Below are positions 1,950 through 15,831 of a DNA stretch of 26,305 bases, piece by piece; within the stretch, counting starts at the first letter, position 1, and each line of letters begins with the position of its first letter. The stretch is from the IMG/VR virus record IMGVR_UViG_3300010371_000104, positions 1 to 26,305 of that record; one strand, 5' to 3'. The notes beneath the pieces are model-generated. The model worked only from the letters and a program-made list of their open reading frames with translations, was not told the DNA's origin and made no database searches. The position numbers were made by a program, and so were the translations under genes. Source of the DNA: a virus.

Positions 1950-2288
1950 GTGGAGTTCACGGACTCCGAAATCCAGGCCATCCGGCAGGTTGCGCCGGCT
2001 GACCTGTTGACGTTCAGCCAGTGGCTGTTCCTGAATCGCAAGGGCTATGCGTGGCGGATGGGTGACCATCACCGCGTCATGGCCGATGCGCTGATGCGGG
2101 TGTTCGATGGCGACTGCAAGCGGCTGATCATCAATATCCCGCCGCGGTACTCCAAGACGGAGTTGGCCGTGGTGAATTTCATGGCCTGGGCACTGGGCAA
2201 TGTGCCGGATGCGGAGTTCATCCACACCAGTTACAGCGCCGACTTAGCTGCGAACAATGCTTGGCAAGCGCGAGCTGGTGCAGCATGA
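1950..2288 (+). CDS. terL: Terminase large subunit, N-terminal fragment (frame-disrupted)
   Basis: This frame starts at GTG 1950 and carries the ATPase start of a large terminase: LIINIPPRYSKTE (about residues 59-71) is the deviant Walker A loop of this family. Homology runs to about residue 105 (NNAWQA), then the frame goes off and stops at 2288 after a few meaningless residues. The next motif expected in the family, RELVQ, is in the frame 1 nt away at about 2268. Restoring two bases (GC) in the GCGCGAG run near 2265-2271 would give an aligned ARELVQ. So this is one half of a broken gene whose other half is 2257-3330. As it stands it cannot work alone. Confidence 0.85.
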   Translation: MEFTDSEIQAIRQVAPADLLTFSQWLFLNRKGYAWRMGDHHRVMADALMRVFDGDCKRLIINIPPRYSKTELAVVNFMAWALGNVPDAEFIHTSYSADLAANNAWQARAGAA

Positions 2289-3330
2289 CGAGTTCCGGGC
2301 AATCTTTCCGGGCATCCTGTTGCGTTCCGACAGCACTGCGCGCAATCACTGGCGCACGGACTCTGACGGTTGTGTCTATGCAGTCGGTTCGGGCGGAACG
2401 ATTACAGGCTTTGGTGCAGGCAAGCATAGGCCCGGGTTCGGTGGCGCGATCATCATCGACGATCCCCATAAGGCGGATGAAGCGCGAAGCGACATCAAGC
2501 GAAAGAACGTGATCGAGTGGTTTCAGAACACGCTGGAATCGCGCAAGAACGGACCCGAAACACCGATCATCCTGATCATGCAGCGGCTGCATGAGGATGA
2601 CTTGGCGGGTTGGTTGCTACGTGGTGGAAATGGCGAAACGTGGGAGCATGTCTGCCTGCCGGCGATTCGGGATGACGGGAAGCCGCTCTGGCCAGCAAAG
2701 CATGATTTGCCGGAACTTCGCCGCATGGAGCAGGCGAGCCCCTACGTGTTCGCCGGGCAGTACATGCAACGACCGGCACCGCTGGAGGGTGGTCTGTTCA
2801 AGCCGGATCAGCTGCAGGTAATCGATGCAGTTCCCGCTGGCGAGATTCGTTGGTGTCGCGGCTGGGACTTGGCAAGCGTGACTGAGGACGGCGACTGGAC
2901 GGCGGGTGGCAAGCTGGGTCGCTTGGCGGACGGGCGCTACATCATCGCCGACATGACGCGACTGCAGCGCGGCCCGGACGAGCGCGATGCAGCCATCGTC
3001 AACACAACGGCACTTGACGGCAAGTCAGTCGTAGTGAGCTATCCGCAAGACCCTGGACAGGCCGGCAAGACGCAGGCCTTGTACATGACGCGCGCCCTTG
3101 CCGGCTATCGCGTCAAGACAAGCCCAGAGACGGGCGACAAGGTGACACGTGCCGAACCACTCGCCGCTCAGGTGAACGTCGGCAACGTGATGATGCTGCG
3201 TGGACCGTGGAATGAGGCACTTGTGAACGAAATGCGGATGTTCCCCAACGGCAGTCATGACGATCAGATCGATGCGCTAAGCCGCGCGTTCGCTGAAGTC
3301 ATGGCGCCGCGCCGCAGTTGGTTCGGCTAA
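2257..3330 (+). CDS. terL: Terminase large subunit, C-terminal fragment (ATPase end plus nuclease)
   Basis: This open frame supplies the rest of the large terminase: GSGGTITGFGAG, the Walker B and catalytic region AIIIDDPHKADEA, the coupling-like segment LIMQRLHEDD, then the RNase H-like nuclease with acidic positions in RGWDLASVTEDGDWT and at the end SHDDQIDALSRAF. With the upstream half the total is about 460 residues, normal for a terminase. The apparent ATG 2257 is probably not a true start, because it lies inside the conserved region shared with the other half. The enzyme would pump DNA into the prohead and cut concatemers. The split is a frameshift caused by mutation or by sequencing error. 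Confidence 0.85.
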   Translation: MLGKRELVQHDEFRAIFPGILLRSDSTARNHWRTDSDGCVYAVGSGGTITGFGAGKHRPGFGGAIIIDDPHKADEARSDIKRKNVIEWFQNTLESRKNGPETPIILIMQRLHEDDLAGWLLRGGNGETWEHVCLPAIRDDGKPLWPAKHDLPELRRMEQASPYVFAGQYMQRPAPLEGGLFKPDQLQVIDAVPAGEIRWCRGWDLASVTEDGDWTAGGKLGRLADGRYIIADMTRLQRGPDERDAAIVNTTALDGKSVVVSYPQDPGQAGKTQALYMTRALAGYRVKTSPETGDKVTRAEPLAAQVNVGNVMMLRGPWNEALVNEMRMFPNGSHDDQIDALSRAFAEVMAPRRSWFG

Positions 3331-3340
3331 CAGGACATTC

Positions 3341-3898
3341 ATGGCTTTCTGGCGCAAGACCAAAACCGAGGCTCCTGCGCCATCGGTGACGAAGCGTGTA
3401 TCCAGCTGGTTCAGCACGCATGCGTTCGATGGGGAACCTCGCCGCGTGTCCATGCTGGAATATATGCGCGCGTTGCCGAAGCCGCAGACGGATGGCTCAG
3501 TGAGCGCCATGGATAGCTGGGACGATGACAGCTTCAAGCTGTTCGGCGACATGCAGACGATCCTTTCCGGTCCAATCATGGACTGGTATGGCGCGCAGTC
3601 GTTCATCGGTCACCAACTCGCCGGCATCGTGGCGCAGCACTGGCTGGTCAACAAGGCCTGCTCCGTGCCGGCGCGTGATGCGGTGCGCAAGGGCTATAAC
3701 ATCGTCACGGAAGACGGCGACGACCTCGACGAGGAAGCTGTCAAGCTGTTCAAGCGATTCGACCGCAAGTTCCGCATTCAGCGGCAATTGTGGACTTCGT
3801 GCGCAAGGGCCGGATCTTCGGTGTGCGCGTGGCGATGTTCAAGGTCGAGTCCACCGACAAGGACTATTACGAAAAGCCGTTTAACCTCGACGGCGTGA
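3341..3898 (+). CDS. Portal protein, N-terminal fragment (frame-disrupted)
   Basis: This frame begins 10 nt after the terminase stop with [14 protein letters not shown] and contains the N-terminal part of an HI1409/DUF1073-type portal: [27 protein letters not shown], here cited in part as [15 protein letters not shown], followed by [12 protein letters not shown] and [15 protein letters not shown]. After RQL (about 3789) the frame becomes arginine- and serine-rich nonsense and stops at 3898. The conserved continuation is in the next frame. One missing base in CAATTGTGGAC, for example a third G making TTGGTGG, would join RQL directly to [11 protein letters not shown]. No slippery sequence is present here. 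Confidence 0.85.
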
Positions 3899-4809
3899 CG
3901 AAGGGAAGCTACAAGGGCATCGTTCAGGTCGATCCCTACTGGACGGCGCCGCAGCTCGATCAAGCCGCCGCCGCCAGTCCCGACACGCTGCACTTCTACG
4001 AGCCGACGTGGTGGATCATCAACGGCAAGAAGGTGCATCGCTCACATCTGTGCATCTATCGCCACGAAGAAGTGGTCGATGTGCTGAAACCGCAGTATCT
4101 GTACGGCGGTGTGCCGCTCCCGCAGCAGATCATGGAGCGCATCTATGCGGCGGAGCGCACAGCGAATGAAGCGCCCGAACTCGCCATGACCAAGCGCACG
4201 AATGTCTGGCTGACGGACATGGAAAAGGTCATGGCGAACAGCCAGGATGCCGTGGATCGCCTGAACCTTTGGACGCAGTTCCGCAACAACTACGGCGTGA
4301 AGTTGGGCGACAAGGATAGTGACGAATTCCAGCAATTCGACACCACGCTAGCCGATTTCGACGCGCTGATCATGACGCAGTACCAGTTGGTGGCGGCCAT
4401 CGCCTGCATGCCCGCCACGAAGCTGCTCGGCACGAGTCCGAAAGGCTTCGGCGCTTCGGGCGAGTACGAGGAATCGAGCTATCACGAAATGCTGGAGTCG
4501 ATCCAGGACGACGCCTTGACACCGTTGCTGGAACGCCACCATGCGCTCGTGATGCGGTCCTTCATCGCCCCCAAAGGCATCGATCCAGTTGCAACGACGA
4601 TCGTCTGGAACCCGCTGGATACGCCGACCGCGAAGGAGTTGGCCGATACGAACCTGGTCAAGGCGCAGGCTGGTCAGGCGCTGATCCAATCCGGCGCGAT
4701 CACGTCCGAGGACGAACGCAAACGCGTGGCGACCGACAAGGAAAGCGGCTACCACTCCATGGGCTTGAGCGACACCGATGTCGATGAAGCCGAACCGGAA
4801 GCCGATTGA
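3790..4809 (+). CDS. Portal protein, C-terminal fragment (HI1409/DUF1073 type)
   Basis: This frame continues the portal from [17 protein letters not shown] through the body of the protein: [38 protein letters not shown] and [20 protein letters not shown] are typical of this portal family. Together with residues from 3341 onward the joined protein is about 490 residues, as expected. The portal ring sits at the unique vertex, passes DNA during packaging and holds the neck. GTG 3790 is an accidental start candidate within a conserved segment, so independent translation is unlikely to give a working protein. The end overlaps the MuF gene by 32 nt. Confidence 0.85.
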
Positions 4810-5635
4810 CGCTCGAGGCGCCGTCGGCGGCGAGTTGCGCCCGGCCGTTGGCATCGGCGCAGATGTGTTCCACGAATTGCGGGCCGCGCTGGAGAGGATG
4901 GCCAAGGAGATCAAACGGGACATGATCGCCACCTTGTCCAAGACGGGATTCGATGGACCGAAGTACGGGCAGGACGCCGCGGACGGCTCCTACCAAGCGC
5001 GCGTTCGGCTCAATGCGCTGGCGAAGAAGTGGGAGCCAGCGTTTGGCAAGCTGGCGACGAAGCTGTCGGATCGCCTGGTGAAGCGCAGCCTCAAGCATTC
5101 GGCGGTCACGCTAGGCATGTCGTTGCGGCAGATCAGCAAGGATTTCGAAGTCAATACGCGCTACCTCGACGCGCGGTTGAAACAGGTCATCAATGCCAGC
5201 ACACAGGAAGCGGCGAATCTGATCAAGCTGATCCCTTCGCAGTACCTAGGCGACGTGCAGGGCGCTGTGATGCGCTCGATCACGACGGGTCACGGCTTGA
5301 AAGACCTGGTTCCGACGTTGAATCGCCTCTATGACGGCCGGATCAAGCACGCTCGCATGGTGGCGCTGGATCAGACGCGCAAGACGACAATGAACATCAA
5401 TGCCGCCCGGTTGCAAAAACTGGGCTGCGAGACCTTCGTATGGGTCCACACGGGCGGCGGCGTGCACCCGCGCAAGGATCACATCGCGCTGTCGGGCAAG
5501 GAGTTTCGGTTCGACGATCCGCCTGTGATCGGCGTGATGTACGGAGAAACAGTGCGCGGCCTACCTGCACAGATGCCCAACTGCCGGTGTGTGTGCAAGC
5601 CGGTGTTCAACTTCGAGAAAGACCATGCCGCTTAA
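4778..5635 (+). CDS. Head morphogenesis protein, MuF/SPP1 gp7-like
   Basis: This 285-residue protein starts at ATG 4778 inside the 3' end of the portal gene. It is mostly helical in the N-terminal two thirds. The C-terminal part has the MuF signature region: [34 protein letters not shown] and the ending [11 protein letters not shown]. In Mu and SPP1 this minor head protein goes into the prohead with the portal and helps DNA ejection or assembly. Portal-then-MuF order is standard. It overlaps the next gene by 11 nt (5625-5635), so the packaging and head genes look co-translated. Confidence 0.85.
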
Positions 5636-7322
5636 ATCCGGGTCCAGCCGAGCAACGATCTCGGCCAACATCGCCGAGCTCGTGAAATCAGGCCGCCCGC
5701 AAGCCCAGGCAGTTGCCATTGCCTACAACGAAGCCCGCAAGTCGCACGGCGTGGACAAAGGCGATGGCAACCCAAACAACGACCATCAGCGCGACCTAAA
5801 GACGGAGCCAGATACCAAGGTCGTCGCCTTCATCGTCTACACCGACGACGAGAAGATTCTGTGGATGCGCCGCACGAAAGACAACTCGTGGGGCTTCCCG
5901 GGAGGCCATGTCGAGGAAGGCGAAAGCCCGATCGAAGGCGCGATCCGCGAAAGCCGCGAGGAAACGGCCTATGTGCCGCGCACCGGGCTGGCTGAGATTT
6001 ACGTGGAAGGCGACGTTCACCTGTTCCACTGCAACGATGGGCGCTTCGACCCCGAGCTCAACGACGAACACGACGCTTTCGTGTGGGCACCGTTCGACGA
6101 TGCGCCGGAACCATTGTTCCCCAAGATCGCCGAGAACGCGGAAGAAATCGCGGACGAGGCGAAGGCGGCATTGGACCGCCGCGAGTACGACACGAACGGT
6201 TGGTTCGAGGTCAAGGACAACCCGCTGTCGCTGGTGGGCGTCTTTCCGTATCTCGGTCGCTCCATCGATCCGAACGCCGACCCGGACAAACTCTTCAATG
6301 TGCTGCGACCGGCTGAAGAACTCGCCGATCCCGAATGCATCGATTCGTTCAAATTGCTGCCGTGGATCGACGATCACACGATGCTTGGCAGTGAGGATGA
6401 CGGACTGGTGCCCGCCGAGCAAAAGGGCATCCAGGGTGTCATTGGGCAAGACGTCTATTTCGACGACGCCGACGCCGATGGCACGCTGAAAGGCAACATC
6501 AAGGTTTTCTCAGAGGCGATGGCTTCCCTCATCGCCAACGGGAAGAAAGAGCTCTCGTGCGGATACCGCTGCCGCTACGAGTACAAGCCGGGCACGTTCA
6601 AGGGCCAGGCCTACGACTACGTCCAGCGGGACATCCGCGGCAACCATCTCGCACTCGTCGATAACGGGCGCATGGGGCCGGACGTCGCGGTTCTCGACCA
6701 TTTCGTTTTCACCATCGACTCCAAGGAATTCACTCCCATGGCCGACAAGACCAACACCAAGGCTTCCGACGAGGAAGCGATCAAGCAGTATCAGGCTCTG
6801 CGCCCCGCGCTGGTGCAGATGATGGCCGCCATGGATGCGGCTTCCAAGGACAAGGATGACGACGAAGAGCACAAGGACGACGAAGAGGAGGAAGAGGAAG
6901 CCTCCGACAAGAAGGGCAAGGACGAGTCCGAAGAGAAGGAAGACAAGGACGAAGCCAAGGACAAGGCGCGCGACGAGGAAGAAGAGGAGGAAAAGAAGGA
7001 CAAGAAAGGCGAAGGCATGGATGCGGCGGCGTTCGCTCGCGAAGTCGAGAAGAACCTGGCGATCAAGGGCAAGCTGTACGACTCCCTGTCGCGCCGGATC
7101 GGTGCCTTCGACCACGCCGATATGTCGCTCGCCAAGATGGCCAAGTACGGCTGTCGCCAGTTGGGCGTCGATGCGCCCAAGGGCCAGCGTGTGTCCTTCC
7201 TGCAAGCCTTCCTGCAGGGCATGGATTCGCACGTCGGCACCACCACGCATGCCACGGATGCCGCTCCCAAGCGCCGTCCCGGCAACTTCCTCGATCGTCA
7301 CTTCGCCAAGAAGGAGGCCTAA
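5625..7322 (+). CDS. Nudix domain - DUF2213 prohead protease - acidic scaffold fusion protein
   Basis: ATG 5625 is chosen because it begins a recognisable N-terminal module ([19 protein letters not shown], like DUF6496) and lies in the usual overlap with the previous gene. The 565 residues then give: a Nudix hydrolase domain with box G94, E100, R108-E109, E112-E113 (the usual final Gly is Ala115); a DUF2213 domain from about 187 to 362, with DDH, the ELSCGYR serine and GNHLALV, the arrangement expected of a herpes-type prohead protease; a very acidic Lys/Glu/Asp segment at about 405-465, likely scaffold; and a conserved-looking C-terminal domain. It would organise and mature the capsid. What the Nudix part does is unknown. 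AAGGAGG near its 3' end serves the next gene. Confidence 0.85.
6738..7322 (+). CDS. Possible nested in-frame scaffold protein (internal start)
   Basis: ATG 6738 lies in frame within the fusion gene right after the DUF2213 domain, and AAGGA at 6723-6727 sits 10 nt upstream as a usable ribosome binding site. Translation from here would give a 194-residue protein starting [13 protein letters not shown] that contains only the acidic segment and the C-terminal domain. This is the same design as lambda C/Nu3, where the scaffold is made separately from the 3' part of the protease gene. The evidence is only the start codon, the binding site and the domain boundary, so this is a proposal. Confidence 0.35.
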
Positions 7323-11435: not shown

Positions 11436-12929
11436 ATGGCAATTCCCGCCAAGCGCATCGCCAACGTTATCCCGAGCGTGCTTTCGGCGGCAGGTTCGGC
11501 GCTCGATCTCAACGGCCTGATCCTGTCGCAGAACGCGCAGATTCCTTCCAGTTCCCTGTTGCCGTTCGAAAGTGCGGCAGACGTGGGAGCGTTCTTCGGC
11601 CTGGCCTCAACCGAATACGCCATGGCGCAGGTCTACTTCCAAGGTCCGAACGGCGCCACCACCACGCCGGGCAAGCTCTATTTCGGTGCCTACAGCACGA
11701 CTGCAGTGGGCGCATGGCTTCGCTCCGGCTCGCTGGCCAGCATGACGCTCACGCAACTGCAGGCGCTGACCGGCACGCTCACGATCACGATCAATGGCAC
11801 GGCGGAAACCTCCGCTTCCATCGTGCTTTCCGGGGCAAGCAGCTTCACCGCCGCCGCTGCGACGATCCAGGCAGCTTTCACGTCGCCGGACTTCACGGTC
11901 AGCTTCGACACGCAGATCAGCGCGTTCGTGTTCACCAGCTCGACCACAGGCGCCGCCTCGACCTCGACCTATGCCACTGGCGCGTTGGCGGCCAGTCTGA
12001 ACCTCACGCAGGCCACGGGTGCAGTGCTGTCGCAGGGCGTTGTCGCATCCACACCGGCCACGTCCATGCCGGTCTATGCCGCCGCGGCAGGCGATTGGGC
12101 GGGCTTCGCCACGGCATGGGAACCGGTCATGTCCGACAAGCTGGCCTTCAGCCAATGGACGGGTCTGCAGAATCGCCGCTACTTCTTCGCCGGCTATGAC
12201 ACGGATGTCAACGCACTGACTGCCGGAAGCACCGAAACCTGGCTTTCGCAGGTCATCGCAGCGAACGAAGACGGCACCATCGGCATATGGGCTGCGAATG
12301 ACGCCGAAGCGGCCATGGAGGCGGCGGCGGTGTTGGGTTGGGCAGCTTCGCTCAACTTCATCCAGACCAACGGCCGCAGCACGCTTGCCGAACGATCGTT
12401 CTCGGGCCTGACGCCGACCGTCACCACCGATGCGCAGGCCGGCGCCCTGCAGACGAACGGCTACAACTACTACGGCGACTTCGCCACCAGCTCGACGCAG
12501 TGGCAATTCTTCTATCCGGGCTCGATCACGGGCGAGTACGACTGGGCCGATTCCTACGTCGGTCAGATCAAGCTCAATGCCGACCTGCAGGACGCCATGA
12601 TGGCGCTGCTGACCTCGGTGGGCTCGATCCCGTACAACGCCGCCGGGTACGCGATGATCCACGCCGCGCTCACCGGACCAGTGTCCGCCGCGGTGAACTT
12701 CGGCACGATCCGCACGGGTGTGACGCTTTCCGCCCTGCAGGTGCAGGAGCTCTACAACGCCATCGGCGTTGATGTGTCGCAGCCGCTCAACGCGTCGGGT
12801 TACTACCTCGACATCAAGGATGCCGCGCCGTCCACGCGTGTTGCGCGCCAGTCCCCGCCCATGACCCTGTACTACACCGATGGCGGTTCGGTGCAGGCCC
12901 TTTCGCTTGCCAGCATCGAGGTGCAGTGA
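11436..12929 (+). CDS. Contractile tail sheath protein, DUF3383 type
   Basis: This 497-residue protein begins MAIPAKRIANVIPSVLSA, the typical start of DUF3383 sheath proteins, and continues with DVGAFFGLASTEYAMA, an Ig-like insertion LTITINGTAETSASI, the middle SQWTGLQNRRYFFAGYDTD, shown in part as RRYFFAGYDTD, and the C-terminal NFGTIRTGVTLSALQVQELY. The ending SIEVQ suits a sheath strand-exchange arm. It forms the contractile outer tail and so marks this phage as a myovirus. CGGAG lies 10 nt before ATG. The tube gene follows with an overlap. Confidence 0.9.
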   Translation: MAIPAKRIANVIPSVLSAAGSALDLNGLILSQNAQIPSSSLLPFESAADVGAFFGLASTEYAMAQVYFQGPNGATTTPGKLYFGAYSTTAVGAWLRSGSLASMTLTQLQALTGTLTITINGTAETSASIVLSGASSFTAAAATIQAAFTSPDFTVSFDTQISAFVFTSSTTGAASTSTYATGALAASLNLTQATGAVLSQGVVASTPATSMPVYAAAAGDWAGFATAWEPVMSDKLAFSQWTGLQNRRYFFAGYDTDVNALTAGSTETWLSQVIAANEDGTIGIWAANDAEAAMEAAAVLGWAASLNFIQTNGRSTLAERSFSGLTPTVTTDAQAGALQTNGYNYYGDFATSSTQWQFFYPGSITGEYDWADSYVGQIKLNADLQDAMMALLTSVGSIPYNAAGYAMIHAALTGPVSAAVNFGTIRTGVTLSALQVQELYNAIGVDVSQPLNASGYYLDIKDAAPSTRVARQSPPMTLYYTDGGSVQALSLASIEVQ

Positions 12930-13363
12930 TGAGCACGATCACGTCGGCCAACTCTTCGTTCGCCATCATCATCCCCGGCGTCTATTCCGCCCCGCAGCAG
13001 GTGCAGGGTTATGCCACGGACGACGCCTTCCTGGTGGAAGCCGTGGAGAAGGTGGAAACCCGCATCGGCATCGACGGCAAGCTGTCTGCGGGCTACATCT
13101 TCAACCCGTACAAGCAGACCGTGACGCTGCAGGGCGATTCGTCGTCCTTCGACCTCTTCAACAACTGGCAGCTGGCACAGGATGCCGTGCGCGAGGTGAT
13201 CGCCTGTGCGGCCACGATCATCCATCCGGCGATCGGTTACCGCTACGCGCTGACGAACGGCTACCTGTCGAAGTTCAAGCCCATGCCGGACGCCAAGAAG
13301 ACCCTGCAGACGGTCCAGTTCGAGATCACATGGGAAAAGATCGTCGGCGCAAAGGTGTCCTGA
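12929..13363 (+). CDS. Tail tube protein
   Basis: I choose ATG 12929 (overlapping the sheath TGA) over the GTG three bases upstream. The 144-residue protein follows the sheath directly, the standard place of the tube. It is beta-rich, with FAIIIPGVYSAPQQVQGYA, GYIFNPYKQTVTLQGDSSS, the YRYALTNGYLSKFKPMP turn and the ending QTVQFEITWEKIVGAKVS. That last strand pattern is the one I associate with tube proteins of DUF3383-sheath phages. It would stack in hexameric rings around the tape measure. One base separates its stop from the chaperone start. Confidence 0.8.
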   Translation: MSTITSANSSFAIIIPGVYSAPQQVQGYATDDAFLVEAVEKVETRIGIDGKLSAGYIFNPYKQTVTLQGDSSSFDLFNNWQLAQDAVREVIACAATIIHPAIGYRYALTNGYLSKFKPMPDAKKTLQTVQFEITWEKIVGAKVS

Positions 13364-13364
13364 C

Positions 13365-13808
13365 ATGGCGCGCAAAACATGTCGCCTGACCATCGATGCC
13401 GATGGCCGGGACAAGGGCAAGACCTTCGTCATCACCGAACTTCCGGCGCTCGACATCGAGCGCTGGACGGTGCGCCTGGTGTTGGCGCTCGGCAAGAACG
13501 GCGTATCCCTGCCGAACGTGCAGGCCGATTCCGGGTTCGCAGGCATTGCCGGCATCGTGTGGGTGCTGATCGCGCAGATCACGGCCGCCGATGCCGAACT
13601 ACTGCTGGCGACGATGATGGACGGCCTCAAGATCGACGAGGGCAAGATCACGCGCGACCTCGTGCCGGATGACATCGAAGAGGCCGAAACCCTCCTGCAG
13701 ATCCGCATGGCCTGGGTGGACCTGCATGCGGGTTTTTTCGCGAAAGGCGGTCGCTTGATCTGGGGCCGCCTGACCTCTTCGACGAACGCAAATACGCCCG
13801 CGTCCTGA
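13365..13808 (+). CDS. Tail assembly chaperone, short (zero-frame) form
   Basis: This 147-residue product reads ARKTCRLTIDADGRDKGKTF at the start, then ITELPALDIERWTVRLVLAL and a helical body LVPDDIEEAETLLQIRM. Small proteins between tube and tape measure in long-tailed phages are the gpG-type chaperones that coat the tape measure during tail assembly. After the frameshift site (13733-13739) the zero frame continues for about 23 low-information codons (RLIWGRLTSSTNANTPAS) and stops, as usual for the G form. The longer form is listed separately. Confidence 0.85.
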   Translation: MARKTCRLTIDADGRDKGKTFVITELPALDIERWTVRLVLALGKNGVSLPNVQADSGFAGIAGIVWVLIAQITAADAELLLATMMDGLKIDEGKITRDLVPDDIEEAETLLQIRMAWVDLHAGFFAKGGRLIWGRLTSSTNANTPAS

Positions 13809-13969
13809 ACGTGCCGCCGACCGTCGCAGCGGCGGTTTCATCCGAACTCGTGACGCTGGCCGATCTGGCGGTTTCGCTGTCCCTGCAAGACCTCTGGGAC
13901 GTGCTCGAAATCCACGCCGTCAACCGACACAACGAATCCATTCTCTCCCGTGAGGCTTCTCGCGCATGA
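13365..13969 (+). CDS. Tail assembly chaperone, -1 frameshift (GT-type) long form
   Basis: Ribosomes that slip by -1 at TTTTTTC (13733-13739) leave the short frame and read the frame that ends at TGA 13967-13969. This gives about 201 residues: 125 shared, then 76 more including DLFDERKYARVLNVPP, VTLADLAVSLSLQDLWDVLE and NRHNESILSREASRA. The extension has no own convincing start, has a clear coding pattern, and fills the 13809-13965 gap exactly up to the ATGA overlap with the tape measure gene. This is the lambda G/GT design. The T part would bind tail tube subunits. Confidence 0.8.
13733..13771 (+). promoter_or_regulatory. Programmed -1 frameshift signal
   Basis: The heptamer T TTT TTC (13733-13739) is in the correct phase (X XXY YYZ) with the zero frame GGT TTT TTC; the overlapping G GGT TTT is a second acceptable site. 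Five bases later, 13745-13752 (AGGCGGTC) can pair with 13764-13771 (GGCCGCCT) in an 8-bp stem with one G-T pair and an 11-nt loop. Slip site, spacer and stem fit a stimulatory hairpin. Confidence 0.8.
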
Positions 13970-15831
13970 ACGTCATTGAGGCCCTGTTCATCACTCTTTC
14001 GCTCGATACCAGCGATTACGAGAAGAAGCAGAAAGGCGTTATCACGTCGCTCACCAAGATGGGCGAGGCGTCGGACAAGCAGACGAAGCTGATCGCGGAG
14101 AGTGGGAAGAAAGCCGCCCAAACGTTCTCGCTGCTCAAAGTGGAAGTGCTGGGCGCACTGGCGGCATTCGGCATGTCCACAGGGTTCAAGAGCTTCATCG
14201 AGTCGAGCATGAACGGCCAAGCGGCGTTGGGACGCCTCTCCGGCTCCCTCGGCATGTCCACTCAAAGCCTGCAAGCATGGAAGCTAATGGCGAAAGAGAT
14301 GGGAGGTTCCGGCGAGGAAGCCATCGGAACCCTGCAGAAGGTGGCGTCAGGACTGGCAAGTGCCCGTCGTGGGGACATGTCGTTCCTGACGGTCGCGAAT
14401 AAGTATGGTGCCGGTCTAGACATCACCAAAGACACCACGCAGTCAGCGATGGGCAAGATCAACAAGATGGCTTCGGCGATCCGCCAGAAGTACGGCGAGC
14501 AGCAAGCCATGGGCGTGCTGAACGAGATGGGGATCAGTGGCTTCGTCCAGCAACAGCGGCTAATGGAAGACCCGAACAAGTTCGCCGCCGACTATGCGCA
14601 CGCGATGAGCCTCACCGGCGCAGCCACAAAAGCCAGTACCGAACAGGCCGCCAAGCTGCAAATGCAGTGGGCCGATCTTCAGGAGCGTTTTCGTCAGGTG
14701 GGCGAACGGGTATTCAACAAGTTGGAACCCATTCTGGCTCGGCTCGGTGAGCGACTCGCGAATTGGTTGGACTCGATTAACTGGCAGGACGTCATCAACA
14801 AGATCGGACGCTTCATCGATAAGGTGCAGGAAGTCGTGAAAGAACTGGGCGGCTGGAAAACCATTGCCGAAGTTCTTGGCGGCGTGCTGGCGCTCAAGCT
14901 GCTGTCGCCATTGCTTGGACTGATCGGCGGCTTCATGCGCCTGATCCCTTTGCTGGGAAGTGCAACAGCCGGCTTCGCGGGTTTGGGGGCTGCGGCCGGT
15001 CCGGCGCTCGCCATCCTGATCGGCGGCGCTGGCGGATGGGCTATCGGAAAGCAGATCGACAAGCATCTTTCGGCAGGCACGAAAGACGCCATTGGCAGTG
15101 CCGTGGCGCATATGCTCGCCTTCTTCGGCAACGACGAGGCCAAGGCTGCCATCCAGGACACGCACCTTGGTGAATTGCGTGCGATGGCTTCGCAGAACGC
15201 GCCCAAGATCGGCAGCGATTTCCTCGGCAAGTACGACCCGCAGCATTCGCGTCAATTTGGCGGCAACAACGCAGGCATGTTCGCCATCCTGGAAAAGGAA
15301 TATGGCCTGCCGCCCGGCACGCTCGCCCGCAAGTTCCAGGTCGAATCGGCGAACGGGACGCGGCTTGTCTCCAAGGCTGGCGCACTCGGACCGATGCAGT
15401 TCATGCCGGCGACAGCGGCAGCGATGGGTCTCGGTGACAACGTCATGGACCTTGACGCCAGCGCCAAGGCGGCAGCGCAATACCTGCAACAGCTGCACAG
15501 TCAGTTCGGTGATTGGGACAAGGCGAACGCGGCCTATAACTGGGGGCCGGGCAACCTCAAAAAGGACGTCGCTGCACATGGCGCCCAATGGCTCAACTTC
15601 GCACCCGGTGAAACGCAGAAGTACGTGGCCATGCATCGCTTGCTGCAATCGGCCTCACCGTCATCGAGCTTCGCAAAGCGGCAGGGACCGACCACGAATA
15701 CCAGCACCGTCAGCATCAACACGCTGAACGTCAACACCAAGGCCACCGACGCGAACGGCGTCGCGAAAGGCATGAAAACGGCCATGCAGGCCAATCCGCT
15801 GATCGCGGGCTCTGTGACGAGCCTCGCCTGA
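13966..15831 (+). CDS. Tape measure protein with C-terminal lytic transglycosylase (SLT) domain
   Basis: ATG 13966 overlaps the chaperone stop (ATGA). The 621 residues give: a helical N-terminal region beginning VIEALFITLSLDTSDYEKK and a MGEASDKQTKLI segment; hydrophobic stretches at about 304-365 (VLGGVLALKLLSPLLGLIGG and following), likely membrane-inserting; then a lysozyme-like SLT domain with catalytic Glu at about 460 in QVESANG, GPMQFMPATA and AAYNWGPGN at about 523-530. It measures tail length, leaves first on infection, and can cut peptidoglycan for DNA entry. At about 1.5 angstrom per residue the whole protein would span roughly 93 nm, less if the SLT domain does not count. Confidence 0.9.
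   Translation: MNVIEALFITLSLDTSDYEKKQKGVITSLTKMGEASDKQTKLIAESGKKAAQTFSLLKVEVLGALAAFGMSTGFKSFIESSMNGQAALGRLSGSLGMSTQSLQAWKLMAKEMGGSGEEAIGTLQKVASGLASARRGDMSFLTVANKYGAGLDITKDTTQSAMGKINKMASAIRQKYGEQQAMGVLNEMGISGFVQQQRLMEDPNKFAADYAHAMSLTGAATKASTEQAAKLQMQWADLQERFRQVGERVFNKLEPILARLGERLANWLDSINWQDVINKIGRFIDKVQEVVKELGGWKTIAEVLGGVLALKLLSPLLGLIGGFMRLIPLLGSATAGFAGLGAAAGPALAILIGGAGGWAIGKQIDKHLSAGTKDAIGSAVAHMLAFFGNDEAKAAIQDTHLGELRAMASQNAPKIGSDFLGKYDPQHSRQFGGNNAGMFAILEKEYGLPPGTLARKFQVESANGTRLVSKAGALGPMQFMPATAAAMGLGDNVMDLDASAKAAAQYLQQLHSQFGDWDKANAAYNWGPGNLKKDVAAHGAQWLNFAPGETQKYVAMHRLLQSASPSSSFAKRQGPTTNTSTVSINTLNVNTKATDANGVAKGMKTAMQANPLIAGSVTSLA

Follow-up and report, generated by a model that had tools for sequence, protein, structure and literature searches.

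A tail assembly chaperone pair very probably made by programmed -1 ribosomal frameshifting in a contractile-tail phage and its relatives

The Chaperone Locus and Its Genomic Setting

The window (the whole stretch of DNA analysed, 26,305 nt) is a 26.3-kb viral contig that carries, by Pfam and PHROGs profile matches, the head and tail genes of a contractile-tail phage. It encodes a terminase, a portal, a head maturation protease, a major head protein, a tail sheath (DUF3383), a tail tube, a chaperone, a tape measure protein with an SLT domain, a baseplate hub, baseplate J, a tail fibre and an integrase. Around the chaperone, the same profiles give the order sheath, tube, chaperone, tape measure, which is the position of a G/GT-type gene. 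The features of the locus are collected in Table 1.

Table 1. Features at and around the chaperone gene, in window coordinates.
Feature	Position	Strand	Basis
Tail sheath (DUF3383)	11436..12929	+	Pfam DUF3383, E 1.4e-123; phrog_205 tail sheath
Probable tail tube protein, immediately 5' of chaperone	12926..13363	+	Pfam E217_Gp32, E 2.7e-16; phrog_1964; position after sheath
Tail assembly chaperone, short form (TAC-N), 147 aa, zero frame	13365..13808	+	phrog_1932, E 1.7e-32
Tandem slippery site G GGT TTT TTC	13730..13739	+	GGGTTTT 13730-13736 and TTTTTTC 13733-13739, both in phase
-1 frame extension, 76 aa + TGA; predicted C-terminal part of long chaperone (TAC-NC, 201 aa)	13739..13969	+	
Spacer GCGAA, 5 nt	13740..13744	+	Sequence
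Stem-loop, 8 bp (13745-13752 with 13764-13771, one G-U), 11-nt loop	13745..13771	+	Fold
Tape measure protein with SLT transglycosylase domain	13966..15831	+	Pfam SLT, E 1.4e-17; PHROGs tape measure and lytic tail protein families

The zero-frame product, TAC-N, ends at the stop codon 13806-13808, and its match to the tail assembly chaperone profile phrog_1932 spans residues 1-129. With Pfam PF21822 (Phage_TAC_15) it scores 16.8 bits, below the curated 22, and TAC-N is not counted as a member of that family, as the gathering cut-off is missed. The same profile matches 16 of 56 members of the TAC-N family at E up to 0.01, with a best E of 2e-5. TAC-N is modelled with confidence by AlphaFold2 (pLDDT 82.8), and its dN/dS is 0.18 in nine close sequences.

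The Slip Site and the Downstream Structure

Near the end of the chaperone gene, the initial annotation had described all parts of a -1 recoding signal, namely a slip site, a spacer, a stem and an open -1 frame, and each of these is found where it had been placed. The heptamer TTTTTTC is in phase, as the reading frame that starts at 13365 divides it into T TTT TTC; it is followed by the 5-base gap GCGAA, and then by the 8-bp stem, in which AGGCGGTC pairs with GGCCGCCT, one G-U included. TTTTTTC occurs once on the + strand of the window, at this slip site. To this can be added a second in-phase heptamer, GGGTTTT, which makes the site a double one. A shift on either heptamer would give the identical protein, ...GFFRERR... 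(...GFFRERRSLDLGPPDLF...). Heptamers of the form X XXY YYZ with Y = A or T number 17, in any phase, on the + strand of the 26.3 kb, so that, by a rough estimate, chance would place about 0.02 of them in phase within the final ~75 nt of the gene. Of the 143 Phe codons in 11 genes of the window, 14 (~10%) are TTT.

The site is well conserved nearby. GGT TTT TTC is identical in all nine close sequences, and in the 360 nt upstream third positions vary at 89 of 120. A comparison of the stem among relatives had been proposed at the outset, and all pairs hold in 9/9 of these sequences: seven of the eight are invariant, and the remaining one changes from U-G to C-G. No compensatory change is seen in the stem in these nine nearly invariant sequences. 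The region codes in two frames, however, and therefore conservation of the stem is by itself no proof that the stem forms.

The evidence for structure comes instead from more distant loci. The fold in the window, with -18.4 kcal/mol and z -1.97 over 46 nt and z -0.73 over 60 nt, is unremarkable when taken alone; the family-wide signal is what counts. Over the 60 nt past the slip, 64 diverged loci have a mean z of -1.03, with 14 below -2, as compared with mean z values of -0.55 to +0.11 and 0-8 loci below -2 in 12 control windows taken upstream and downstream. The first helix starts at most 8 nt from the slip in 61 of the 64, mostly at 0-6 nt. From this signal, a stimulatory role for the downstream structure is likely, if not certain. 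A search of the window with Rfam gave no match.

The -1 Frame Extension

As first described, an open -1 frame, which runs from 13739 to the TGA at 13967-13969, gives 76 residues and closes in an ATGA overlap with the tape measure ATG at 13966. That the extension is coding had also been proposed, and this is borne out in the nine close sequences, where past the zero-frame stop the -1 frame has a dN/dS of 0.22; pN is higher than pS in each of the other two frames (ratios 1.25 and 2.41). Where the two reading frames overlap, synonymous change is lowered in both. Conserved residues of the extension start three codons past the slip, with an Arg there that is near-invariant. The extension matches phrog_3976 (E 2e-15), as do 50 of 50 family members tested, and 48 of 50 also match phrog_4625. 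Its AlphaFold2 model has three helices and a pLDDT of 91.5. A weak Pfam match to the WDR41 propeller was discarded as noise (17.5 bits, as against a cut-off of 50). The predicted tryptic peptides are MAWVDLHAGFFR at the shifted junction, MAWVDLHAGFFAK as its unshifted counterpart and, further, SLDLGPPDLFDER.

The extension could instead be an independent small gene that has its own start codon and is coupled in translation to the chaperone stop, and several GenBank submitters have annotated it so (Pantoea PA-1 ORF070, Pseudomonas Amjad_SA 00032, Aeromonas 56 gp68, Edwardsiella GF-2 ORF-17); other records of relatives leave a gap at this place. In the window, the only ATG, GTG or TTG past the slip in the -1 frame that leaves at least 50 residues is GTG 13811, which is near the zero-frame stop. 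However, no Shine-Dalgarno-like sequence precedes it, which agrees with the earlier claim that the extension lacks a start of its own. Moreover, protein-level conservation in the -1 frame already sets in at the slip, before any start codon is reached, as seen from the Arg and from dN/dS, and 32 of 91 distinct loci have no ATG, GTG or TTG in that frame within 100 nt past the slip. Conservation of the slip site would also be left without a reason. Homologues that encode the extension as a separate gene, which the initial annotation had named as evidence against recoding, are indeed annotated in some phages, but their starts lie inside the conserved -1 frame. We consider a separate gene very improbable, and read the GenBank entries as annotation artefacts. 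Gene callers were expected to miss the long form and to leave 13809-13965 empty; the first part of this expectation stands, whereas the second may not, as a caller might give a 52-residue orphan from GTG 13811, much like the short genes that submitters reported in relatives.

Conservation of the Layout among Relatives

Relatives were collected in several ways. With the chaperone as query, 29 loci were found in viral contigs; an alignment as query gave at least 576, and the 80 best of these were used. Annotated phages yielded 95 records. Three relatives, in Bordetella, Xenorhabdus and Acetobacter contigs, came from a contig scan with the single chaperone protein. The layout of chaperone, -1 extension and tape measure is retained in relatives down to about 25-40% identity. 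With an iterative profile, the extension was found in 111 of 113 loci examined; of the other two, one reaches the record edge (L037) and the other has less than 150 nt remaining past the chaperone stop (L022). Of the 111 extensions, 110 are in the -1 frame, none is in the +1 frame and one is in the same frame (L030), where the zero-frame ORF is cut short in a way that looks like an indel.

These counts bear on whether the frame change in the window could itself be an indel introduced by sequencing or assembly. Apparent single-copy frame breaks do occur in this contig, in the portal and terminase genes, but those breaks are absent from their relatives, while the -1 relation of chaperone and extension is shared by 110 of 111. 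An indel in the contig is refuted by the relatives, and we give it the least credence of the alternatives, next to none.

After removal of duplicates, an in-phase X XXY YYZ heptamer is present near the chaperone end in 71 of 92 distinct loci. The remaining 21 mostly have GGA TTT TTC followed by C, T or G; 20 of them have only a T4 or T5 run, and one (L050) has neither. Sites of the GGATTTTTC type, without a standard heptamer and with the same -1 extension, occur in about 20 distinct relatives (e.g., L064, L066, L074, L080, L103). At such sites the slipping tRNA must differ, and tandem slippage is not the exact event. In seven loci the -1 frame opens at most 3 nt from the slip; in L020 to L025, for instance, a -1-frame TGA lies directly 5' of TTT TTT A, which leaves ribosomes only the slip or a later start as a way into the frame.

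RNA polymerase might slip on the T run and yield some mRNAs with a changed number of U, so that no shift by the ribosome would be needed. The run at the slip is 7 T in 13 and 9 T in 3 of 91 distinct loci (e.g., L018:1596-2021), and the longest of these would in principle be long enough. However, the run in the window is of only six T and 39 of the 91 loci have five or fewer; T runs this short seldom slip in bacteria. In addition, the combination of an in-phase heptamer and a stem behind it at ribosomal spacing speaks for the ribosome. As the general explanation, transcriptional slippage thus has a very slight chance, comparable to that of a separate gene, although it could contribute in the relatives with nine T.

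The slip sites are of several kinds: the double heptamer GGGTTTTTTC, single TTTTTTN or GGGTTTT, runs of T7-T9, and GGATTTTTC sites. A tentative interpretation, to which we would give somewhat less than an even chance, is that one homologous chaperone family has switched several times between types of slip site, the frame and position of the product staying fixed. If so, the family would provide a natural series in which to follow changes in a recoding signal whose product is retained.

Proposed Mechanism and Comparison with Known Systems

Taken together, the layout in relatives, the conservation, the coding of the -1 frame and the family-wide structure signal support the reading first proposed, that of -1 recoding. 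Almost certainly, the locus encodes two forms of a tail assembly chaperone, the longer one arising from programmed -1 ribosomal frameshifting, where we infer the slippage itself from the sequences. Most ribosomes would stop at 13808 and yield the 147-residue TAC-N. In a minority, tRNAs on GGT-TTT or TTT-TTC would slip back one base and the ribosome would go on to read CGC GAA AGG... to 13969, yielding the 201-residue TAC-NC with the junction GFF-RERR. The downstream stem-loop probably delays ribosomes at this point and may thereby be stimulatory. If lambda gpG/gpGT is a guide, the tape measure protein would be coated by many copies of TAC-N and few of TAC-NC, the extension may recruit the tail tube subunit, and both proteins would leave before the tail is completed; chaperones are normally missing from virions.

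The slip sequence of lambda is GGGAAAG. The lambda system resembles the present one in having two overlapping products, a -1 shift near the end of the chaperone gene and a location directly before the tape measure gene (Levin, 1993; Xu, Hendrix, and Duda, 2004, 2013, 2014; reviewed in PMC5009743). Unlike the myovirus-type locus of the window, lambda is a siphovirus, and the roles assigned above to TAC-N and TAC-NC are borrowed from it with neither sequence nor fold similarity to lambda detected. Frameshifted chaperones before the tape measure gene are described as widely conserved in long-tailed phages (PMC5009743, citing Xu et al., 2004), and a prediction tool has been trained on such genes (PMC10885494). 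The mechanism is textbook knowledge, and the locus is a further example of a frameshifted chaperone.

A closer parallel is found in the Vandenendeviridae, for which a frameshifted chaperone with a GTTTTT slip motif was concluded from 56 alleles in 2025 (PMC12846349). Vandenendeviridae/Andersonviridae (Pseudomonas phage Adele) also have a myovirus chaperone, a -1 extension, a poly-T slip and the tape measure gene downstream; the extension is likewise routinely annotated as a separate hypothetical gene, and the comparative argument is the same (PMC12846349). They are a different phage group, likened here by locus layout, and a downstream stem is without mention in the available part of that report (PMC12846349).

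The two frames of the window match phrog_1932 and phrog_3976 directly, the latter being listed in PHROGs as of unknown function, apart from the chaperone. Searches with Foldseek of the TAC-N and extension models against solved structures gave no match with E below 0.001, and a sequence search of solved structures found no relative. In a viral fold library, where likewise no E fell below 0.001, the best matches were short uncharacterised phage proteins of 51-84 aa and one of 172 aa. For the extension, the best fold matches being mostly of 51-84 aa fits an artefact of separate-gene annotation. For four families of unknown function, phrog_3976, phrog_4625, phrog_18181 and phrog_4774, the best interpretation is that they represent the C-terminal chaperone portion produced by frameshifting. 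The same holds for the small "hypothetical protein" that precedes the tape measure gene in DUF3383-sheath myoviruses, a reading that corrects the annotation; the link of phrog_3976 and phrog_4625 to the chaperone is a modest addition.

Other Features of the Contig

The portal gene (3341-4809) is in two frames, with a break near 3790; it is one continuous frame in relatives (e.g., L115, L117, L118), and the break is either an assembly error or the mark of a broken copy. The large terminase gene (1950-3330) is also in two frames, with a break near 2250, and is continuous in L117 and L125. Before the terminase region lies an esterase/lipase-like gene (49-1095; phrog_21992, E 8e-40). At 5589-7322, the head maturation protease (DUF2213) is fused to a NUDIX domain (E 3e-17); phrog_3778 covers both, and the fusion is therefore common to known phages.
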